A DNA stretch of 64,000 nucleotides from Sphaerolaimus hirsutus (Eukaryota > Nematoda > Chromadorea > Monhysterida > Sphaerolaimidae). Positions 5,601 to 57,406 of this stretch are shown one piece after another (position 1 is the stretch's first letter; each line of letters begins with the position of its first letter). The stretch spans positions 15,885,832 to 15,949,831 of the forward strand of contig OZ038458.1 of NCBI GenBank assembly GCA_964036195.1, read 5' to 3'. A program made the position numbers and the translations under genes. Under the pieces are notes generated by a model. It made no database searches and was not told the DNA's origin. It was given only the letters and a program-made list of their open reading frames with translations.

Positions 5601-6781
5601 TATTTTCCAAAAAATTAGAAGTTATCGGGTTCGGGTCGGGTTCCCAACACACAACAGTGCCGGGACGGAAAATTGATTTAATGGCATCACACACGCTGGA
5701 TGTCAACTGAACTTGTGTCAACTAAATTTTAGTGAATCATGTGATTTCAACTTACCTATCTGATAGAGCATGGTAAATTCCACGTCATGACACTCAATTT
5801 TCATTGTTTCAGTGATGCTTGAAAAAATTTGTTATTTATTTAGTTGACATTGAGTTGATACGAATTTGCGGTGTCAACTAGCGCGTGTGGGCCCAATCCA
5901 ACATGCCCTGCAGCGGATTCGATGCATTGCGGTGTGCCTTGCTATTACACTATCCCAATGATTGTCGGCTTGGCATTTTTGCCGAACCATCATAACTCAG
6001 CCACAGATTTTGTTTTTTTCTGTACATTAATTATAACGTCCTAACTCTGTCGCAAACTTTACGATGCTGCTTCTTGTGCCGTTTTCATTTGAGCATCAAG
6101 AGTGAGCGGGAAAAAGCCAGGGGGCAGTCCCAAGCCCTATAAAGTGTCAATTGTCATGCGAAATGCAAATACATTCAATTAAATATGTAACTGTCAATTA
6201 TCATGCGAAATGCAAATACATGCAAGTAAATACATTACATACATATTGACATACATTATACATTTTGCTTTTGCTTTTGTTCATGCAAATATTTCATTTT
6301 TTGTTTTGATGGACATTTGACACATTACACGGCTTGGGACTGCCACCTGGGCAATATGCAGACTACAGGCGCTCTAAGTACAAATGTTAAAGATTATATC
6401 ACCATCAGCAAGCTTGACTTTCCCGCTCGTTCGCGATGCAATTTTCGCTGTCAGTGTAATGGATCACTTGGAAGTCGCTCATCTTCTAGTCATAAATACA
6501 TTGAACATCCGTAATCCGTCGAGTATTTTTAGGCATCGTTCAATGCTTCGTAGTGACGTGGCACAAAGTCATCGGATAAATAAATTATTAGTTTCTGGGC
6601 AAATTTATTTCGCTTCTCGAAAACTTTGTGGAATCGGTCAATCGGGTATAGAAAGGCGGCGCGTGAATCATTCAAATTCAAATTCGAAGGTGTCAACGCA
6701 TAGGCAGTCGATATCACAAGTGCGGCTGTTTTACTGGGACCACGTTTGCTCGTTTGAGTGGATGGACGGGTGCGCGGCGCT
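2673..6781. repeat. Intergenic repeat mosaic between G-alpha-s and the SSP gene
   Basis: No gene is recognised. Supported pieces: an inverted-repeat element at about 2773-2986 whose ends read GGCCCGCACACTGATTGACA and its inverse; a partial introner-family-A-like stretch near 3040-3085; a C-tract element at about 4114-4376; a foldback at about 5138-5386 with ends CCCACACACACTAGTTTTCA; a GGGTATCGGGTTCGG-type repeat at about 5388-5650; a TTGACA-type inverted-repeat element at about 5687-5895; and a family-A introner-like element at 6117-6346. A minus-strand AATAAA (plus TTTATT at 6604-6609) could serve the SSP gene. The rest is AT-rich and unassigned. Confidence 0.6.
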
Positions 6782-8319: not shown

Positions 8320-11300
8320 ATGATGGCCAGGGGGCATATCGGCTCCAGGCGAACCAGCAATAAAAACCGAATGACGCTGCGCCAAAACAAGAGCGGCGGC
8401 CAGGGACTGCAGCCGCAGCCGCAACGGCAGCAGCAGCTGCATCCACGTTTGAAGCAAAGCCCAGGTAATTCGCCGGCCGAGCTCGTAGTGTTGCATGTGC
8501 AAAATCCATTTTGCAAGATCGTACCCGCGCACCGAGCCATTACTTCTTCAACCGAGAATCATTTTGTCTGTGCAATACGATCGAACCTGCCGACGTGATT
8601 TTGCAAAATTATTTTTGGCATGATGCATTGCTCGAAGTTTGCCCTGGGGGCAGTCCCAGACTCTGTAAAATGCCCTGTAAAATATGAAATGTGATGCAAA
8701 GTGTCAAAAGTCATGTAAAATGCGCTGCAAAATGGCAAACTATTTGCCATTTTGCAGGGAATTTACATGACTTTTGACACTTTGCAGGACACTTGACATT
8801 TTACAGGGTCTGGGAGTGGCACCGGGCAACCAAGTAAGTTGCACCTCGCGCCGCCAGCCCCGGCGGCACAAGGTGCACAGGCACCGTGGTGGCGCTCAGG
8901 CAGACCCGTGGTCGAGGGGGGCGACTCCACCGAGCCCGGCTCCGTCGACTCCGCCAACCCGCCCCAGGCGGCCAGGCTCGAAGATGAAGTTGGTGTCGGA
9001 CACCGTCGAAACATCTGCTTTTCTTGTCAAATAACACGGAAGTGAAATCAGTGGGCGTGATATTTCGAGGAAATACGTTTATTTCAATTTCCCCATGACA
9101 TGACAACGTTCCTTGCCACTTGTACTTTAGAAGGCATCAAATTTGTATACTCGGCGGACATCACACTTAGTATGAAAACCTACCATCACCCATCTGAATA
9201 ATGAGCCAAAAATTAGTTTTTTCATCATAATATTTCGTTTTTACTATGGAATACTTAATTACGAATTTTATAACAAGATTTTATTCAGTAAATTATGGTA
9301 GGTTTTCATACTAGGTGCGCTGTCGGCCGAGTAGACTAGCTACGCAATGTACCCCCTCAGGAATGGTACCACGGGCTGATGCCGCGCGAAGACATCAACC
9401 GCATGCTGCGCAAGCAAGGCGACTTCATCGTGCGCAAGTCCGAGGTCGACGGCAAGGTGAAGCACGTGCTGTCCATCCACTGGGACCACAAGACCAGACA
9501 CGTGGTCCTCCATCTGAGCAGCAAAAACAGGCATCTGATCGATCCAAACGTCAGTTTCCCGCGACCATGTATCATGTGTGCAGTCGTGCCGTATTTACCG
9601 TGCATTGGGGGGTATTTCGAGGGAGGAGGTTGTTTATTCATAGTGGCCATTTTGAGGGGATATTTCGAGGGGGTATTTCGAGGAGGTATCTGAGGAAGTA
9701 GGGTATGTATTTATGTACAACATCACTGAACGTGTATTTCACGCAGGACCGCGACTTTGGCACAATCAGCGAGCTCATAAACTTCTACTGGCAGAAGCAG
9801 ATTCATGTGCCGCGTACCAACTACCTGCTGCTTAATCCTGTTCCCAGGTGCGCGTGCGCATGCTGTTTTAATAGCAAAGTACAAAGACAAAGTGGCTTGA
9901 GGTGTTCACAACCAAAAAAGGGGACAAAAAATAGAATTGCGGCTTTCTATTGGAAGAAATACGGTAGCCGATATTGCCCCTACTCAAACACTGTCGATAA
10001 GATATAGTTATCGCACCGATTTTTGGCACTGTCAAAGGGCGTCAGCGTGACTACCGTTTTTGCTCGAAATACACCCCTTGAATTAACCCCACCCCCTCGT
10101 AAAACCCCTAGCTGTTTTCGAGCTGGGGATATTTTTCCCCTCCCCCTGTAAATACCCCCGTCTGGAATTACCTATGTACCGTATTTCCTCGAAATACCCC
10201 CCTCAAAATGACCACTATAAAATAATAGACCCTCCTTGAAATACCCCCCAAATTTATGAAAATTTCTAACGAAAAATAAACCCCTTCGAAATACCCCCCT
10301 CAAAATTTCCAGTCTGAAAAAGTAAACCCCCTGGGGGTATTTCGAGGAAACATGGTATTTATTTGCGCTGTGCTGTGAACTACTGTACTGCATTGCATGC
10401 TATTCTGCGCGCAGGCAAGAATGGGAGCTGCGGCACGAGGATGTGCGCCTGGCGCAGAAGCTGGGGGAGGGCGCCTTCGGGGAGGTGTTCAAGGGCGAGC
10501 TCGTCCGCCACAACAAGGAAGTGGTACCTGTCGCTGTGAAACGGTCGCATGCTCACCAGGAACTGACAAAGGACCAGATTAATGAGCTCATTGCTGAGGT
10601 GAACATGTTGTTCTAAGAGAATCGTAGATTGAAGTCGTTAAGTGAAGTTGAGTGCCTATAAATAAAAGAATAAGTGTTCATTAAAGTCATCAGTCATAAT
10701 TAGGGTGTCAAATTTCCGTTTTCCGTTTTCTGTTTCCGTTTTCCGCAGGCAATTTTTTTCCATTTTCCAGCTGCTGAAATTTTTTTTCCGTTTTCCATTC
10801 TGTTTTCCGGCCACTAAATTTTCCGTTTCCGTTTTTCCGGCTGATTTTCTGTTTTCCGGCCAAATTTTTAGTTTTTCCGTCTTTTTCTGTTTTCCGGCTC
10901 AATTTCCAGTTGTTCCACCTTTTTTCCCATTTTCCACCTCAATTTTCCGTTTTTCCGCCTCATTTTACTTTTTTCTGGCTCAACTTTCTGTTTTCTGTTA
11001 CAGCCAAACTAGTAAACATTCATGCAGATTGTCAATTATGTGAATTTTTTCTGTTTCCACCAAAATTTCAGCAAATTTTTCCCACTTGCGGCAAAATTTC
11101 AGCAAATTTTTTCCATTTTCCAGCAAAATTTCAGCAAATTTTTTCATTTCCGTGCAAATTACATTTTTCCGTTTCCGTTTTTCTGGGCCCTCTTTCCGTT
11201 TTGCGGCCGCTGAAAATTTTTTTCCGTTTCCGTTTTCCGGCCGCTGAAATTGTTTTTCCGTAAAAAAATTTTTTGACACCCTAGTCATAATACATACAAA

Positions 11301-19506: not shown

Positions 19507-21463
19507 AACTAAGTGTTTGAGCTGGTTGAAAAATTTTATTTCCAACTCGCTATTTTTTGTTTGTGGCGTGGTGCTTCAACAATGGTTAAGAGGATTCGTT
19601 TAGGATTTGTCTAGGCTACAATCTCTAGTTGGTTCATGTTAGATAATCTCTTCGTGTTTTTAAGGCTCTAATAGTGCACATGCGAAATGTAGCTCACGAT
19701 ATATTAAATACCTGATTTGCTACTGATTGCCCAGCTATTTGGTATATAGTCATTTTGTTCATTCCGAGAAAATAATAATCACAATCTGTTCAGACTTATT
19801 TTTTCTCGTTGATACAATAAAAATAAACATTTAACACATGAAAATCGACCCAATCACTTGATTTTTGAATATTGAGTTTGTAGGTCGAAAAACAAATTAT
19901 ACCAGTTTAAAAAAAAATTAATGTCTGTTAATTTAGCCACCTGTTTTTGCTTTATAGTCATTCAGTATTAATTAACTATGCAGTGAAGTACATATTTATC
20001 TATTGCACTCACACTAATTATATTCATCTAGGTGAAAAATCTTATTTATTTATTTAGGTCTCCCATGTCTGAATGAAATTTACAGTTGGAATGATCCTAT
20101 TTATGAATAACGGCTGGAATAAACGATGGCTCCTCATGTCCAGTACTTTAAATTGTCCGTTTTGTGTCGTTCTATCCAATTCCTACAACCACTTTTCAAC
20201 AAAAAAGAGCCTGCAAAACGTGCTGCAAAATGTTACCGATAAAACGTGGAGAATCCATTGCATTGCCGTTCGCCACAGGGACGTATCCAGGATTTTTGAG
20301 CGGTGGGGGGGGGCATTTTGGTGCCATATGCCCCATAGTTCATTTTCCGCTCTATCTATCCCAGTTAGGCGCTGGTGTTTGGTGATGTACAAGCGCCATG
20401 GCGCTAGCGCCAAAGCAAAAAGCGCCATGGCACTTTTGGCGGTTAGCACTATCGTGCCATGGCGCTTGGCGCTATAGTCCTGGCGCTTTTTGATTTTGAT
20501 TTTGATTTGTTCATTATTGGTTCGCCTGGGCAGTGACTACCATGCAGTGACATGCGTGTCGAGTCACACTGTTTTTTCTAACACTGCTTCCGTACTATTT
20601 ACAAACATGTTCAGCTAACATGCGCTGAATATTTACAACCTTAACGATCAATTATTTATTTATTGACGAGGTATTTGCTTGTTAGCAATTTTCGGTCCTT
20701 CAACCGGTCTTCAGCAGATCGAGTAGATAGTTTTCATTCATAAATTTTTAGTAGAAAAATATTTATCAGCTATTTAATGCAGAGGTGGACGAGATCTTTT
20801 CGTTCTGAGGTGACTCTCAAATTATCTTTCCCTCAATTTTTATCCAAAAACTGATCAAACCCCGAATAAATAGATCCTTCTCATCTCATTCATAACCAAA
20901 GCACACGCATTAACCGCGTCGGCCGCATCGCCGCGGCGAGTTGGCAACCAGCGGGTAACCAGGTGCGGTGCGGTTTTGCCGCCCGTCTCATGGCGACCGC
21001 CCGTAGGCAATGCGTGATGCATGTATCAGGGGCTTGTTCCATAAGTTGAGAAGTCGAAAGCCATTTGAGAAGTGAGAACTAAAGTGATAAGTGAAATAGA
21101 GCTTAAATGAGAAGTAAAAAGTATACTAAGCTTGTAACTTTTTACTTCTCATTTCAGTTCTCACTTCACTTCTCATTTCACTTGTCACTTGTCACTTATC
21201 AATTCACTTCTAACTTATCATTTCAATCCTCAATTCTCACTTATCAATTCACTTCTCACTTATCGTTTCACTTATCATATCACTTCTCAAGCAGTTTTTG
21301 ACTTCTCCACTTGCGGAACTGGCTTCAGGTCGTGTCTTTGCGCCGCTGTGCCTGCTTGATTTGATAGCTGTGTTTCGTTTTTGAGCTGGGGTTTTGGTGG
21401 CGAGTTGGTGGTTTTTGCAACTGGATGTCCTGCGGTCGTGGAATTCACTGATATCGTTTGGTG
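19507..21463. other. Intergenic region nicalin / adhesion GPCR
   Basis: 19507-20260 is AT-rich with the nicalin polyadenylation signal. About 20272-20480 holds a partial hAT-like element (CAGGGACGTATCCAGGATTT) and a GCGCCATGGCGC-rich palindromic array. 20890-21025 is GC-rich and could be promoter or first untranslated exon of the GPCR gene. 21028-21328 is a family-B introner-like element. No protein-coding gene was recognised. Confidence 0.5.
21028..21328 (+). mobile_element. Introner-like element, family B, decayed donor
   Basis: About 300 bp made of GAGAAGT/ACTTCTC words. The right end TTGCGGAACTGGCTTCAG matches the family-B 3' end and keeps AG; the left end reads GGGCTTGTTCC instead of GTGCCAGTTCC, so the donor GT is lost. 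It lies 135 bp upstream of the GPCR start codon, outside coding sequence. Confidence 0.75.
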
Positions 21464-36300: not shown

Positions 36301-39300
36301 CGTCTCTTGGTGCTGCGGCAGGCGCTGCACTCGTTGCTAACGTCCGGCCGGCGGCGGCACGCGCTGTGGAGACGCTGGCGCTGGCAACAGACCCAATTCA
36401 ACAAGCAGACCGGTCTGATCTACTCCGAAGAGGAATGGCTGCGCGAGTGGCAAGCCATCGTGAACATGGCGGCGCCGTTGCCGCGCAGCAAGGCGCACGC
36501 GCTCGACAACGAGCACGAGTCTCCCGATGCGGCCGCGGTCGATGGCCAGGTGCCAGTCACGGAACCTGTGAAATGCCCTGTAACATGTCAAATGTCATGC
36601 AAAGTGTCAAAAGTCATGTAAAATGCCCGGTAAAATGGCAAACCAGGGATTTCACATGACATTTGACGCTTTGCCTGTCATTTGACATTTTACAGGGCAT
36701 TTCACAGGCTTTGGGACTGCCCTAGGACGACGCGCCGGTGGAGTCTTGCGACGAGCGGCCGGCCAGCACGTCGTCGGTGCTGCCGGCGACCTACGAGAGC
36801 CTGGAGGAGATACACGTGTTCGCGTTGGCGCACGTGCTCAAGCGACCGATTGTCGTCATCGCCGACACGGTGTTGCGCGGCGCGCACGGCGACCCGCTGG
36901 CGCCTATCACTTTCGGCGGGGTTTATTTGCCGCTCGAGTGCACGCCGCGCGAGGTGCACCGGTCGCCGCTGGTGCTGTGCTACGACGCGGCGCACTTTTC
37001 CGCCTTGGTTGCCATGCAGCAGAAAGCCGGCGCGGTGACTACTAAAGGTGAGAACGATTCTGCACCTGGTCGAATGACACGAAGGGTGTGAAGTGACAAC
37101 AAATTTTTTAAATTGCCGGTGCAGTATGGTAAATTCTGCCACCCTACTTCCACATGCTTCGGAAGTGTGAGTCATCAATTTCCATGCATTAGCCTTCTCT
37201 TCTAAGAACACTTCTCATTTGAACGTGTTTGCATGTCACACTTTTGATGAAAGGTCATTTAACCAGTTGGCAAAAATGTTTGGCAGGTTTTGAAAAAAAC
37301 ATTATAAAAAACGTGGTCATTAAAAACGTTGTTTTATTCCATCCCTATGTGACGTGAAGTCAATTAACCTTCCATTTACTCCTTTTATCGGCACCCTAGT
37401 TGTCACTAGTAATTAATAACTAGCTTATATAAATTCATTTCACATTCGACTGCGTTTTTTCCTTCACATCGGTAACTCTCTCAGCCGTTGTGCCCATCAC
37501 GGATCGGCAGCGGCGCCTGCTGCCGGTGCATTTCGCGTGCGACCCGGGCGCCGATTTCACCTGGTGGTCGGATGCGGCCGACGAGCGACTTGCCGCCCGC
37601 GCCATACTGGACGATCCGCAGCGACTGGCGCTCGTTTGCAAGTACATGGACGTGGCCATCGTGCCCGTGGCCAGCCGTTTGGCCGCTGTCAATGGAGCAA
37701 TTGCGGGTGCGTGGCATGGGAAGGATTCAATGAAATTTGAAATGACAACTAATGCGATCCACAGTTTTTTTAAATGTATTTACGATTACTCGAAAAATAC
37801 GTTTACTCGAGTACTGAGTAAATACGTTTACGTTTCCTCCGGACAAAGGTTCAGTACTTTTCGAAAGTCACAAGGTACAAATACAAGTTTTCCAAGGTGC
37901 AAAATAGAAAAAAGTATCTGAGTAAAAAAACACTGAGTAAAAATTCTCGCTTTTACGTTTTCACTGAGTGAAAATACTGGTATATACGTTTACTCACCTT
38001 TTACGCAGCGTAAAATTAAAAATTTTATTTTACGTTTTCTGTACTCAGGGGTGAGTAAAAATAAAGTACTTTACGTTTATATTTACTATGATAAAAAGTT
38101 CAGTACTTTTAACAATTCGCGAAAATGCAGGCCCAAGGAATAGCCGCTCGTTGCCGCACTTCATTTCGCCCCCTTCGCTTGCCTCATTCGTTGAGCCTCT
38201 GCAGCGCGCACCGGCGCCCATTCAGCAGCTGGCGACTAGTCTCAAAAAGCGCCTGTTCACGCGCACTCGCAACTCGTCCATAACCAGAGCTGGATCAGGT
38301 TTGTTCTGTTCGGTATATCGCCATGAGAAATGGGTAATAGTAGTCTAACTTGAGGTCTCCGTAATGTTAACCTTCGCGGAGGCTGAATTAATGGAAAATC
38401 GCTCCTCCGGTGAAATAGATAACTGATCGATTTGGGGGGGGGGGCAGATCCCCCCCCCCATTGGAGAAGTCTGACTCCTGAGCCTAACCCCCCCTAACCC
38501 CCAACCACTGACTTCTTGCCAACAAGAACGTATTTACAGAACCTCACAAAAGCCTAGAGCGAAGATCAAAAAATTTGCGACTCGCTGCATCATTCATGCC
38601 TACATCTTTAGTCTTTGAAATTTTGCTTTGTCTGTCAAATTCATTATGTCCACCCAGATTACTGCAACACGAAGCACGTGGGCAGAACTGCTTCCCTGGC
38701 CAGGGCGGAGCGTCGACGCAACAGCTGCACCGGTCGGGCGGTGGACACGTTGACCTACGGCCGGCGGTCGGCGTCGCACACGCCCGCCTCGGCCATCCGC
38801 GTGGAGCACCTGCGCGACAGCGGCGTGGTGGTGGGCGCGCTGCTGCACAACGATATCACACAGCCGTACATGCAGGTTCGGCGCGCTGGCATATTGGTGT
38901 TACCTTAAATTGGGGTGCTGGCAGGTGTTTGTGGTCGTTTTTTTTAAATTTTGTCATCGGGATTGACGTTTCGGGGCGGGATCGAGACCACAAAATCCAG
39001 TAAATTCTCGAGATTCGGAATCGGGATGATAATCCCGTTTGAAGCCTACTATAGTGTGATGCGGTTTAAAGTTACTAAATGAATTTTGGCTGCGTGCCAA
39101 CCCGATGCTAATCATGCTGCATTCTAGGACATGCTCGGCAACTACCTTCGACACGCGCGCGAGCGTTTCGACCGCCAGCGCGCCGCCGACGCGGTGCGGC
39201 TGCACGCGGCGCGGGCTAACACTGGCGCGTCGAAAAATGTCACCCAGCCGGCTGCGTGTGACAATGGCGCTACTACGCAGCCTGTTACTAACGGTGTGGG

Positions 39301-41040
39301 AGGTGACGGCTTGCTCAGAGAAAATGGTCGGTTTCTCAAATGACACCTTTTCATGTGCAGACTCGTTTTAAAACATACTTTTTACAGGTCGCCCTTCCCC
39401 AGACGCGCGCCGTCGCCGCGGCATCAGCCGCAATCTCTCCGCATCAAACAGCGCCGCATTGATGGCCGCAGCGGGCGTCGACGACCATTCTTATCCTGCC
39501 GCGCTGCCGGACATCGACGGCGACATCGACCCGGTCGGCTGCAACTTGGGCCAGCTGCCCTTCGCGGTCACCTGCATGAACGACTCGTGCGACCGGCTGG
39601 CGTCGCACGCGACCAACTTCCTGTGCGCCCAGTGCTTCCGCACGCAGAAAGAGATCATGGCGGGTCTGACGGCGGCGAGACACCGACGCACCGCGTCCGC
39701 TGCCGCGGCGCCGTGCGCCGGCGCGCCCAGGGAACTGCCGGCTGTTAGCGTGCAGCCCAGTGTCAGCGACACCGGCCCCGTGCAGCCCAGGTGCCAATCC
39801 CAGACCCCGTAAAATGTCCTGTAAAATGCCCTGTAAGATGTAAAATTTCATGCAAAGTGTCAAAGTCATATAAAATGCCCTGCAAAATGGCAAACGTACG
39901 TTTTGCAAAACGTGTTTCCATTTTGCCGGGCATTTTACATGACTTTTGACACTTTGCATGACATTTTACATTTTGAAGGGCATTTTACACGGCAATTTAC
40001 AGGGTCTGGGATTGCCCCCAGAGAGGACGCCGCGTCGAAGATAGATCAGCATGCAGATCGGTCGAATGCAACGGGCGCTGCGCAGCCTGTTCAGCTGGCA
40101 AAAACTGTGGCGAAAGTGGCCGAATCTGATGTGGGGACATCGGCGGAGACGCGGTTGCCGGTGGGCGACAAGGCCACCTGGCAGAAACACTGCATCACCG
40201 TGAAAAGTGAGTGGGCCGACCGAAATAAATACGATGCCAACACTTTCATCTTTATGACCATGTACAGCGTCAAGCAGTGAACTGTATGCCTTAAAAAATG
40301 TCAGAACGGCAGTGCAACGTATTTGAAAAAGCATTTTTTTATGAATAAACTATTTGAGATAATTCGACCCGTTTCCAATTTATCCTCTTTTCACTGTAAA
40401 TATTCTATTCCGTATAAATAGTGTTGCAAAAAGGTGAAAATTGTGGCTTTAGTGCTCTTGGTGTGCTTAAAATACTGTCCTCATTATCTAATTAATCAAT
40501 CCTGACAATTTAATAATCATCCCATTAACCACATGCGTAAAATCACGCACTGATACCCACGCAGAGAGTTCGTCCGATTTGGGCGGCGACGTGAGCGAAG
40601 TGGCCTATGACGTTGCCGCTGTGACGGCACCGTCGGGGGTCACGCGCTACTACTGCTACGAGGCTACTAATGGCACCAATGGCAATCATTATGGAGAGAC
40701 TTTGTACTGCAGGTGAGCGATTAGGGATAATTACACTCTTGTTCCCTGTGGGTGTTATGCTTGCTCCCGCTTGTTTTTCTGATTAACTTGTCAGACAAAT
40801 TATGGGTAAATGGGTACAAACAAATTCTGGTGAATGGGTACAGGGCTGGGACTAGTATCTAATCATGACATTTTAAAATGTTCGACAGACAACTGACATT
40901 TCACACTGACCTAAACTTTTTGTTGACACCGTGAAATGGTATCTTTCCCTGAAAAACCCGTACGCAGGTCACCGTTGTGTTCAAACTACAGCAACGGCCA
41001 CGGGGCGCTGTGCGTTCGCTGCACAACTACCCGCCACTGA
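33369..41040 (+). CDS. OTUD7/Cezanne-like deubiquitinase, complete
   Basis: An A20-family ovarian-tumour cysteine protease; vertebrate Cezanne cleaves Lys11-linked ubiquitin chains and restrains NF-kB signalling. Exons: 33369-33437, 33548-33701, 33764-33913, 36281-36549, 36726-37047, 37485-37706, 38131-38298, 38658-38875, 39128-39326, 39388-39790, 40022-40206, 40565-40712, 40968-41040; all phases fit, 859 aa. The catalytic motif [13 protein letters not shown] (Cys117) is followed across the intron by MWGFHDR, then [35 protein letters not shown] and the catalytic His in [10 protein letters not shown] (His304), so it should be active. A20-type zinc fingers: Cys653/658/670/673, and a second at Cys835/840/851/854 split between the last two exons. 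Two introns (36550-36725 and 39791-40021) are single introner-like elements. Intron 3 holds a three-level transposon nest. Confidence 0.96.
34707..35971. mobile_element. Middle hAT-like element of the nest
   Basis: Ends CAGGGACGTATCCAGG and ATACGGCCCTG; target duplication ACGCCAAA exact on both sides (34699-34706 and 35972-35979). The left part contains GCGCCATGGCGC palindromic arrays. The element is itself interrupted by 35158-35925. Confidence 0.88.
35158..35925. mobile_element. Innermost hAT-like element with ATATCGA arrays
   Basis: 768 bp. Ends TAAGGTTCAAACGATAT and TATCGTTTGAACCCTA, flanked by an exact 8-bp duplication GCTGCAGC (35150-35157 and 35926-35933). Both subterminal regions are arrays of ATATCGAATATCG words; the middle is AT-rich without coding capacity. 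The repeat at about 393-577 is a truncated relative. Confidence 0.88.
36550..36725 (+). mobile_element. Introner-like element, family A = OTUD7 intron 4
   Basis: 176 bp that is both the whole intron and the whole element. It starts GTGCCAGTCACGGAACCTGT directly after exon GGC CAG and ends GGCTTTGGGACTGCCCTAG directly before exon GAC GAC. Body: TGTAACATGTCAAATGTCAT, GCAAAGTGTCAAAAGTCATG and inverted counterparts. Splicing it out joins residues 214 and 215 in phase 0 in the linker before YESLEE. Confidence 0.92.
37740..38130. repeat. OTUD7 intron 6 with GTAAATACGTTTACTC repeats
   Basis: From about 37780 to 38095 the intron consists of degenerate direct and inverted repeats of GTTTACTC / GAGTAAAA words (for example TACTCGAAAAATACGTTTAC). 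Likely a decayed MITE; no coding frame. It lies between exons 6 and 7. Confidence 0.5.
39791..40021 (+). mobile_element. Introner-like element, family A = OTUD7 intron 10
   Basis: 231 bp, element and intron coincide: begins GTGCCAATCCCAGACCCCGT after exon CAG CCC AG and ends GGGTCTGGGATTGCCCCCAG before exon A GAG GAC. Phase 2 on both sides, which confirms the join. CCCAG is found both before the left end and at the right end. Confidence 0.93.
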
Positions 41041-51136: not shown

Positions 51137-53131
51137 ATGGGGAATAGAGTCAGCTCTGCGTTGCGAGTGCACAGGTATGGAAAGAACTATCGACCAAATT
51201 TCACGGACCGAAGTTCTGGCAGTGTCGTGAGTCAAAGTGAACGTGATCGAGTTTCTTTTTGTGCCGCGCGCCCAAGTTGTTGTTTCAGCCGGAAACGCCG
51301 CCCGGCTCACCGAAGGACGCGACTAGGTCTGGGCGGCCACCCGCCCGCAAACGGTCCATGTCGCTCGGAGCAATTCACTCTCATGCCGCCCCTGCAAGTG
51401 GGTTTCCGTCGAGTTGTTGTGGCTAGTTGCGGTTGCACTGGTGTGTGTGTTTTTCAACGCCACTGCCAATTTACCCAATTTTTTTTGCAATTTACAACCA
51501 TCGCATTCCGTTTTTTCAAACTGTCCGTTCAAATCCTGATTCAAATTAATTAATAATCCTATTTGACTGCTCATTTATGCATGACTTTTCTACAAAAGAA
51601 ATGATCAATGGTGTACAACGCCAGTCGCCGCAACTAGAGCCAAATGACGAGTAAAAACAACCAATGTGTTTTCCTTAGCACAGAGATATGTAGTCTCGCA
51701 CTCGCAGGGGCGATGCCTTCCGCGCGGCACCACAGCAGTCTGCGATTGTCGATGCGGCGGTCGCGACACACGCAGAACTTGGGCACCAACTTGTTGACGC
51801 CCGTCGAGCGACACCTCATTAAGGCCACCTGGCCGCTGGTCCGTTTTTGTTGGCGCACATTTGGTATACACACAACAGATTATACCAACAAGAAATTATC
51901 ACCGGCAGCTGGTGGCGCACGCGAACGAGCAGCAGGGCGGCGGTTCGCAAGAGCACAGTGCGCTGGCTCTGGGCGCCTGCGTGCTGCGAATACTAGTGCA
52001 GATATCACCGTCGCTCGTTCCAATCTTCAAGTTGGAACGCGGCCCTGGCGATCAGTGTGACATAGACCTCGATGAGCTGGGAGAGTCTCACTCGTTTGTG
52101 CAGCACGCGCGCGTCACCACCAGTCTGTTCGAGCTGCTAGTGCGTTCCATATGGCTACAGGTGCCAATCCCAGACCCTGTAAATGTTAAAGTAAAGTGTC
52201 AAATGCCATGTAAAATGACATGCAAAGTGTCAATTGTCATGACAAATGTAAAGTAAACTATCAATCGTCAGGCAAAGTTCAGAAATAAATTTTTTGTTTT
52301 GATTGAAATTTTACATGACATTTCACAATTTACTTAACACTTTTCAGGGTCTGGGACTGCCCCCTGATGAAAGCTTGGCTCATATGAATCTGTTCAAAGC
52401 AGAACGTTGCCCCTCACAGGTGAAGAACGTGGACGAGCTCGAGGCACAGGCTGGCCCGGTGCTGGTAGCCTACGGTCGTCGGCACGGGGCGCGCCAGCTA
52501 CACCAGGTGCCAGTTCCGCTAATTGAGAAGTGAGAAGTAAAATGGCAAATGTGAATTGAATTGAGAAGAAAATTGGCAAACGCGAAGTGAAATGGCTAGT
52601 AAATTGGCAAAAGCGAAGTAAAAAAATATATAAAAAGAGTAATTTCCCTTCGCTTTTGCCGATTTTTTTCTCAATTTCCTTCTCATTTCACTTCGCATTT
52701 GCATTTTACTTCTCAATTTGCGGAACTGGCCCCAGGTAGACGAGCGTTCGTGGGCGGCGCTCGGGGCAGCGCTGCAACAACTGGTCGAGTTGGCCACTGC
52801 GCCCACCGATAGAGGACTGGACATTGTCGAGGTTCACCGAGCCAGAGAGGCCTGGCACAAATTGAGCCAGTTCGCCGTAGCCAAGCTGGTCGAGGGCCAC
52901 CAGTATGAGGTGCTCTATGGGCAGCCCGCACCCGCTGCAACCGATGATGATCACGTGGTGCAGAATGATGCTGGCCATGGTGATGATCACAAGCGACGGT
53001 GGCGCCGCACTGGACCGCGCGCGCGTTCCGCATCGGCCAGGATGGCGGCCAAGAACGCCGCCGTGTATCGATCCAGATATGCACGCACCGGGCGCACACC
53101 CGATGACAATGTGCACAGTGTTGCCTACTGA
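51137..53131 (+). CDS. Globin with N-terminal extension and predicted myristoylation
   Basis: Exons: 51137-51226, 51289-51397, 51708-51838, 51909-52160, 52420-52506, 52736-53131; phases fit, 354 aa. The start ATG follows an in-frame stop and gives MGNRVSS, a good N-myristoylation signal. A basic, Ser/Pro-rich extension (about 95 aa) precedes the globin fold: A helix LTPVERHLIKATWPL (96-110), B helix ALGACVLRILVQISPSLVPIF, E helix with QHARVTTSLFELLVRSI (E7 His176 predicted) and F helix VLVAYGRRHGAR (proximal His216). The H helix contains WHKLSQFAVAKLV. A charged C-terminal tail of about 75 residues follows. The spacing resembles neuroglobin-like and nematode GLB proteins; myristoylation would place it at membranes and suggests a signalling or redox role (inference). 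Introns 4 and 5 derive from introner-like elements. Confidence 0.9.
52161..52364 (+). mobile_element. Introner-like element, family A, supplying globin donor
   Basis: The element begins exactly at the exon end (CTA CAG / GTGCCAATCCCAGACCCTGT) and closes with CAGGGTCTGGGACTGCCCCC, but the next bases are TGATG, not AG. The in-phase acceptor is 56 bp further on (CCCTCACAG, exon from 52420), which restores a normal E-F helix spacing. So the donor comes from the element and the acceptor from sequence downstream. Confidence 0.88.
52507..52735 (+). mobile_element. Introner-like element, family B = globin intron 5
   Basis: 229 bp, intron and element identical in extent: GTGCCAGTTCCGCTAATTGA directly after exon CAC CAG, TTGCGGAACTGGCCCCAG directly before exon GTA GAC, phase 0. 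The body is inverted GAGAAGTGAAATGGC / GCCATTTCACTTCTC-type words around an AT-rich centre. Its body is unrelated to family A although its ends are nearly the same. Confidence 0.93.
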
Positions 53132-57286: not shown

Positions 57287-57406
57287 GTGCCAGTTCCGCA
57301 AAATGAGAAGTGAAATGGCAAAAGCGAAGAGAAATTACTTTTTCTTTTTTTAACTCGCCTTTGCCATTTCACTTCTCACTTCTCATTTGGCAGAAACTAA
57401 CCGCTG
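57287..57406 (+). mobile_element. Introner-like element, family B, short intergenic copy
   Basis: About 120 bp: GTGCCAGTTCCGCAAAATGA at the left, inverted TCTCATTTGGCAGAAACTAA then CCGCTG at the right. GT is kept, the terminal AG is replaced by TG; CTG is present both just before the left end and at the right end. No coding exons were recognised on either side. Confidence 0.8.

Follow-up and report, generated by a model that had tools for sequence, protein, structure and literature searches.

The window considered in the current analysis is a stretch of 64,000 nucleotides from the nematode Sphaerolaimus hirsutus. A gene on its forward strand (51137-53131) encodes a protein with an apparent start MGNRVSS, which we take to be a possible N-myristoylation start, and a long charged C-terminal tail. 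The Pfam family Globin is matched (E=0.0026) only by a trimmed version of this protein, the score of 18.7 bits lying below the curated cut-off of 22, and the untrimmed readings have no match in Pfam, in PDB or among homologues. The identity as a globin proposed in the initial annotation is hence weakly indicated, and the gene is referred to here as globin-like.

An intron of this gene (52507-52735, 229 bp) is made up of one 226-bp foldback element of a repeat family termed B and a 3-bp copy of its target site. The sequence from 52504 to 52738 reads CAG/GTGCCAGTTCCGC...GCGGAACTGGCCC-CAG/GTA, where the slashes mark the predicted exon borders. The upstream exon (52421..52506, forward strand as are all features of this gene; KNVDELEAQAGPVLVAYGRRHGARQLHQ) ends in a CAG (52504..52506) which, from the sequence and the target-site rule described below, is the left copy of a target-site duplication and is expected to remain exonic. 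The element proper (52507..52732) opens with GTGCCAGTTCCGC, whose GT is the predicted 5' splice site, and closes with GCGGAACTGGCCC. The right copy of the CAG follows (52733..52735) and its AG is the predicted 3' splice site. The downstream exon (52736..53131, VDERSWAAL... to stop) is in phase with the upstream one: on removal of 52507-52735 the two open frames fuse as ...GARQLHQ/VDERSWAAL... and the right frame stays open until the stop at 53131. The earlier description of this intron as exactly one family-B element holds, with the refinement that its last three bases are the duplicated CAG; the 3' end quoted as "GGAACTGGCCCCAG" is the element end GGAACTGGCCC followed by that CAG.

Elements of another family, A, have also been identified in genes of the window. 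In the globin-like gene, the intron before 52507-52735 opens with such an element (52161..52363, forward strand) that starts at GT. Its right flank is a CTG in which AG is absent, so that the 3' splice site must be elsewhere and is proposed at 52420. The OTUD7B-like gene at about 36.3-40.7 kb has two family-A elements that read as introns, both on the forward strand. The element at 36550..36723 (intron 36550-36726) has CAG before and TAG after it. When the exons are joined over it they match solved OTUD7B (E=9e-71), and the alignment has a gapped linker at the junction. The element at 39791..40018 (intron 39791-40021) has CAG on both sides; the open frames around it join in phase, and the joined stretch has no Pfam match. 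All four elements in the two recognised genes (36550, 39791, 52161 and 52507) are GT-first along their gene.

Other copies in the window comprise a second family-B element (21030..21325, forward strand) with CAG on each side and a left end GGGCTTG from which GT is absent, a truncated family-B copy (57287..57392, forward strand) that starts CTG/GTGCCAGTTCCGC, and two family-A copies on the reverse strand which, in the GT-first orientation, have CAG before and CTG after (6121..6346) and CCG before and CAG after (8647..8822). The right-end motif with up to 3 mismatches occurs 28 times in the window against 9.2 expected, a number reached by none of 100 shuffles, and no enrichment is seen there for the left-end motif when up to 2 mismatches are allowed (58 against 49.6; 12 of 100 shuffles reach 58). 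Further repeats that contain long runs of G or C (e.g. CAGGGACGTATCCAGGATTTTTGAGCGGGGG) are dispersed over the window at 34-35, 44, 49 and 53 kb, in direct and inverted copies of up to 97% complementarity.

A search of the assembly (348 Mb, 762 contigs) has revealed a very large number of these ends. The exact left end with a flanking CWG (CAG or CTG) occurs 9,174 times genome-wide as compared with 8 times for a reversed-pattern control, an excess of about 1,150-fold, and the exact right end 10,823 times as compared with 112, an excess of 97-fold. With thousands of exact ends in the genome, neither a want of further copies nor a want of conservation in their ends has been encountered. The element has the features of a MITE in that it is a non-coding 226-bp foldback with inverted ends, present in thousands. 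A genome search with family B gave 40 scored copies among 2,356 first-look candidates, matching mostly end to end; the 39 scored copies besides the window element are 85-91% identical to it. Thirty-eight copies were fetched, the window copy and C2:25616675 being left out. Two of them have no recognisable end and three have shared left flanks, leaving 33, from which one more with misplaced ends (L035) was dropped to give 32. A positional sample was also drawn from the 42 left ends that head the genome-wide list; C1:2466927 and C1:2469904 were excluded as they resembled a repeat of two others, and 40 were kept. The right end was placed by script in 22 of the 40 and by hand in three more, the latter for flank translation only.

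The bodies in the positional sample are of A-type, B-type and several other types with little in common beyond the ends. After removal of 20 bp from each end, the window copy scores above all 300 dinucleotide shuffles for one of five family-A copies, and the family-B consensus does so for two of five. The earlier statement that the family-B body is unrelated to family A is therefore nearly right, the remaining similarity being only weak and patchy. Shared ends, several bodies and one CWG rule make it probable that several non-autonomous families depend on a single transposase specificity. In one case (L030) the right flank of a family-B copy opens immediately with a family-A left end (CAGGTGCCAGTCCC), which indicates that the elements also insert side by side.

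The target-site rule has been derived from the 54 copies in which both ends could be located, 32 of family B and 22 positional (L011-L106). Identical 3-mers are found on both sides of 28 of them, where the shuffle mean is 17.8 and 1 of 1000 shuffles reaches 28. CWG is present on both sides in 36 of the 54, the 22 positional copies having been selected by a pattern that requires CWG on the left, and W agrees between the sides in 28 of these 36 (p=0.0006). The consensus of the flanks is A-C/T-CWG-G-T, and a duplication of 5-8 bp is seen in none of the 54 copies. Among listed matches on contig 1, 18 of 24 end pairs agree, a set that overlaps the 54-copy sample. The family-B set alone has identical 3-mers in 14 of 33 copies, within the range of its shuffles, which reach 17, so that the signal of duplication rests on the pooled set. 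CWG is missing on one or both sides of 18 of the 54 copies. W differs in eight of the 36 CWG pairs, four with CTG before and CAG after and four the reverse; this exceeds expectation for elements that are 2.3-7.5% from their consensus, and the duplication is accordingly not clean. The target of zebrafish Harbinger3 contains CWG. The flanks fit a 3-bp CWG target-site duplication, the mark published for the NuwaI group of PIF/Harbinger transposons (PMC4482050).

The consensus of family B, 227 bp long, folds back on itself, its ends being mirror images save for position 2. In the 32 fetched copies and the window copy taken together, left position 2 is T in 30 of 33 and the mirrored right position is C in 32 of 33; this one-base asymmetry places GT on one strand of the element only. 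The right end closes in ...GGCCC (GGG on the other strand) in 28 of the 33 fetched family-B copies first retained, and the left end begins with GTG. The 3' AG is predicted to come from the right CAG of the target duplication, outside the shared end. It is found where the target is CAG, or where the right copy differs by having A in place of T. GT is fixed also where CTG flanks the copy and where no coding flanks are visible, so that transposition, no less than splicing, may be what keeps it. There is no general excess of AG on the right side, the four CTG-to-CAG pairs being balanced by the four CAG-to-CTG pairs among the 36. The proposal that the shared ends are selected to act as splice sites is not borne out by these three observations, namely an AG outside the shared end, a GT fixed without coding flanks and the missing AG excess.

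We have identified copies of family B in genes of the HSP70 family. In L031 the sequence reads GAT ACT CAT CTG/GTGCCAGTTCC...GGAACTGGCCC CAG/GGT GGC AAC GAT. The joined exons match Pfam HSP70 (E=2.7e-37) with no gap at STAGDTHL/GG relative to solved HSP70. A genome search for HSP70 gave 17 matches, and occupancy of the site is taken from the loci that were read. On contig 2 there is a second filled locus, in which a family-B element occupies this codon, likewise with CTG before and CAG after. Three HSP70-family loci (L111, L114 and L117) read DTHLGG, DTHLGG and DTFLGG with no interruption at the site. A further locus of the family, L123, has an ordinary-looking intron at most one codon from the site, so that other introns also occur around this spot. 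The two elements are 74% identical over their best aligned stretch and the two filled loci, elements included, are 90% identical across 1.8 kb. From these sequences the two elements look inherited through gene duplication.

Flanks were joined and translated for 57 distinct copies (33 family-B and 24 positional), of which 10, picked by eye, were put to Pfam. Two of the 57 have a protein-family match across the junction, which is a lower bound on the number of introns. One is L031 and the other is L067, in which an element with one end base missing, together with a CAG, is a predicted intron of a MULE-transposase-like gene, which was put to Pfam again with its full exons and whose joined exons match PF10551 (E=4.4e-9) across the junction. 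L080, L085 and L097 are possible further cases: the left exon of L080 has a WH2 motif slightly below the cut-off, L085 has an open frame only, and the right exon of L097 is zinc-finger-like by eye with no Pfam match. L018 adjoins a G-alpha exon and has CTG on both sides. Most of the 57 copies have no visible coding flanks. On inspection, the open-frame length of their joined flanks shows no excess of sense over antisense or over CTG copies.

Based on these observations we consider the window intron to be an introner, that is, a non-autonomous DNA transposon (MITE) turned spliceosomal intron, with a NuwaI-like motor and CWG targets, and assign to this reading a probability of about 85%. Its basis, which is observed, consists of the copies, their ends, the target-site rule, the one-base asymmetry, the reading-frame fit and the filled and uninterrupted HSP70 loci. 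Similar introns that reach both splice sites, a mark of introners, are those of family B at 52507 of the window and at the two HSP70 loci; the introns of L067, 39791 and 36550 have only the ends in common. Presence and absence at one coding position, another such mark, is seen at HSP70 DTHL/GG, with two loci filled and three uninterrupted.

In the proposed mechanism, a putative NuwaI-like PIF/Harbinger transposase would recognise ends of 11-13 bp common to several MITE families and insert these at A-Y-CWG-G-T, duplicating CWG. The left end may have been altered from GGG to GTG, the order of the changes being one that we infer, and the element would thereby begin with GT. At a CAG target in a gene, with the GT end facing upstream, the right CAG copy would terminate the intron and the left CAG would remain exonic, so that splicing is predicted to give back the exact mRNA that preceded the insertion. 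At a CTG target the outcome would be the same if the right copy differed by one base, A in place of T, as in HSP70. We give even odds to the wider proposal that a single CWG-inserting NuwaI-like transposase drove intron gain through several end-sharing MITE families, with GT supplied by the asymmetry and both CAGs by the target. If this is true, every exonic CAG would be a ready-made intron site, and such introns would number roughly in the hundreds, with a very wide error since the figure is drawn from 2 of 57 copies (10 put to Pfam) set against about 9,000 exact left ends.

Older introns could instead have been invaded by MITEs near their edges, the match to the borders being secondary. We regard this as unlikely, although most of the copies examined lack coding flanks, the element at 52161 starts at GT and has its 3' splice site elsewhere, and L123 has an ordinary-looking intron at most one codon from the HSP70 site. 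Against it, element plus CAG makes up the whole intron from its first base in L031, L067, 39791-40021 and 52507-52735, and three HSP70-family loci are intronless at the filled position. The ends of hAT transposons resemble CAGGG-like ends, and the elements might on this likeness be hAT MITEs with ends CAGGGG... and an 8-bp target duplication, the CAG being part of the element. This is the least probable of the alternatives, very improbable in our view: the 5-8 bp duplication is seen in none of the 54 copies, W is about 1:1 between copies (51 A and 49 T among 100 listed left ends) and yet agrees between the sides above chance, and there is one leucine codon in the joined HSP70 exons as in the uninterrupted loci. 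We reject a hAT origin for the missing 8-bp duplication, and the CAG as part of the shared element end on the HSP70 loci and the agreement in W between sides.

A third explanation concerns only the part played by selection. GT may have been kept by transposition, with autonomous ends of the GTG/GGG type, and introns would be a by-product without selection of splice sites. It is favoured by the fixation of GT in CTG-flanked copies and in those without coding flanks, and by the equal numbers of the two kinds of unequal CWG pair, in which no general selection for AG is visible. Both HSP70 loci, where GT is accompanied by a CAG on the right of a CTG target, and the introns at 36550, 39791 and 52507, which have GT and AG, speak against it. 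We give this explanation a little under an even chance. It leaves the reading of the window intron as a MITE-derived introner in place, as only the selection part is concerned.

Introners are whole introns formed by non-autonomous elements, and inverted ends as well as short target duplications are seen in many of these (PMC9860276). They mostly leave the mRNA length unchanged, fall into 1 to 43 families per genome, are reported from only two animal groups and form a major known source of new introns. According to the legend of Fig. 2C in that account, the Chrysochromulina element has the 5' splice site and the 3' site comes from the duplication. The elements studied here are alike in being non-autonomous and whole-intron, with the 5' site in the element and the 3' site from the duplication. 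The introner of Fig. 2C has 4-bp duplications and no inverted ends, whereas the present element is a foldback with a 3-bp CWG duplication. The suggestion that the arrangement may be undescribed is thus too strong as regards its kind, since introners with an origin in non-autonomous DNA transposons have already been described (PMC9860276).

Within the PHIS (PIF/Harbinger) superfamily, the NuwaI group is known from 16 animal genomes and has a CWG duplication and ends usually starting GGG (PMC4482050). The present elements share the CWG duplication and have GGG at the right end, whereas their left end is GTG, and the searches made here yielded neither a transposase nor a Myb/SANT partner with such ends. 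Introns receive no mention in the available portion of the NuwaI account. The introner elements of Amoebophrya (PMC7789003) likewise comprise many intron families with inverted ends and short direct repeats across exon/intron borders; those introns are non-canonical, whereas GT-AG is seen here. In recently gained fungal introns (PMC8476143) PIF/Harbinger sequence has also been recognised, but the element types are mixed and the portion of that account at hand reports no rule linking element end to splice site.

Introners of the CWG/NuwaI type were not reported among the matches listed in the open-licence literature. As far as those matches go, three points are new: an animal-like genome with a link to insertion of the CWG/NuwaI type, the asymmetry of one base across several bodies, and the filled and uninterrupted HSP70 loci. 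The CWG duplication coincides with the exon-intron consensus (CAG/G...CAG/), so that one base change in the transposon end makes it look spliceable. This suggests a simple route from a cut-and-paste transposon to an intron, for which HSP70 offers filled and uninterrupted examples within one genome.

The initial annotation had also proposed that one transposase mobilises several families, to be checked by finding an autonomous element with the same ends. Thousands of ends, several bodies and one CWG rule favour the proposal. The genome searches run revealed no autonomous element, and no transposase, that has these ends. The profile PF04827 gave one match, inside L064, without these ends. The Myb profiles PF13873 and PF13837 were silent, and so were their controls. 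Among the ends listed on contig 1 are seven widely spaced unpaired pairs; three of these were fetched (L125-L127) and no transposase was recognised by eye among their open reading frames; two frames of L127, one put as the first 220 of its 312 residues, have no Pfam match. PF13359 gave 306 first-look candidates, of which 150 were scored, and 18 loci were examined for ends. The ends of the studied MITEs are absent from the dominant family (L049-L060) and from L061-L066 at the border seen. A family-A-like MITE (L061:5724-5921) lies within a multi-copy PF13359-matching transposon and is also present in L062, L063, L065 and L066, amplified together with it; this transposon starts GGCCCC... and its shared stretch, of up to 5.6 kb, runs beyond the fetched ends. 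The dominant family (L049-L060), recent and 2.6 kb long, carries a PF13359 transposase; its copies are 97.6-99.1% identical to L052 (L055 88%), and the domain match spans 4-5 in-frame TGA codons, perhaps an intron.
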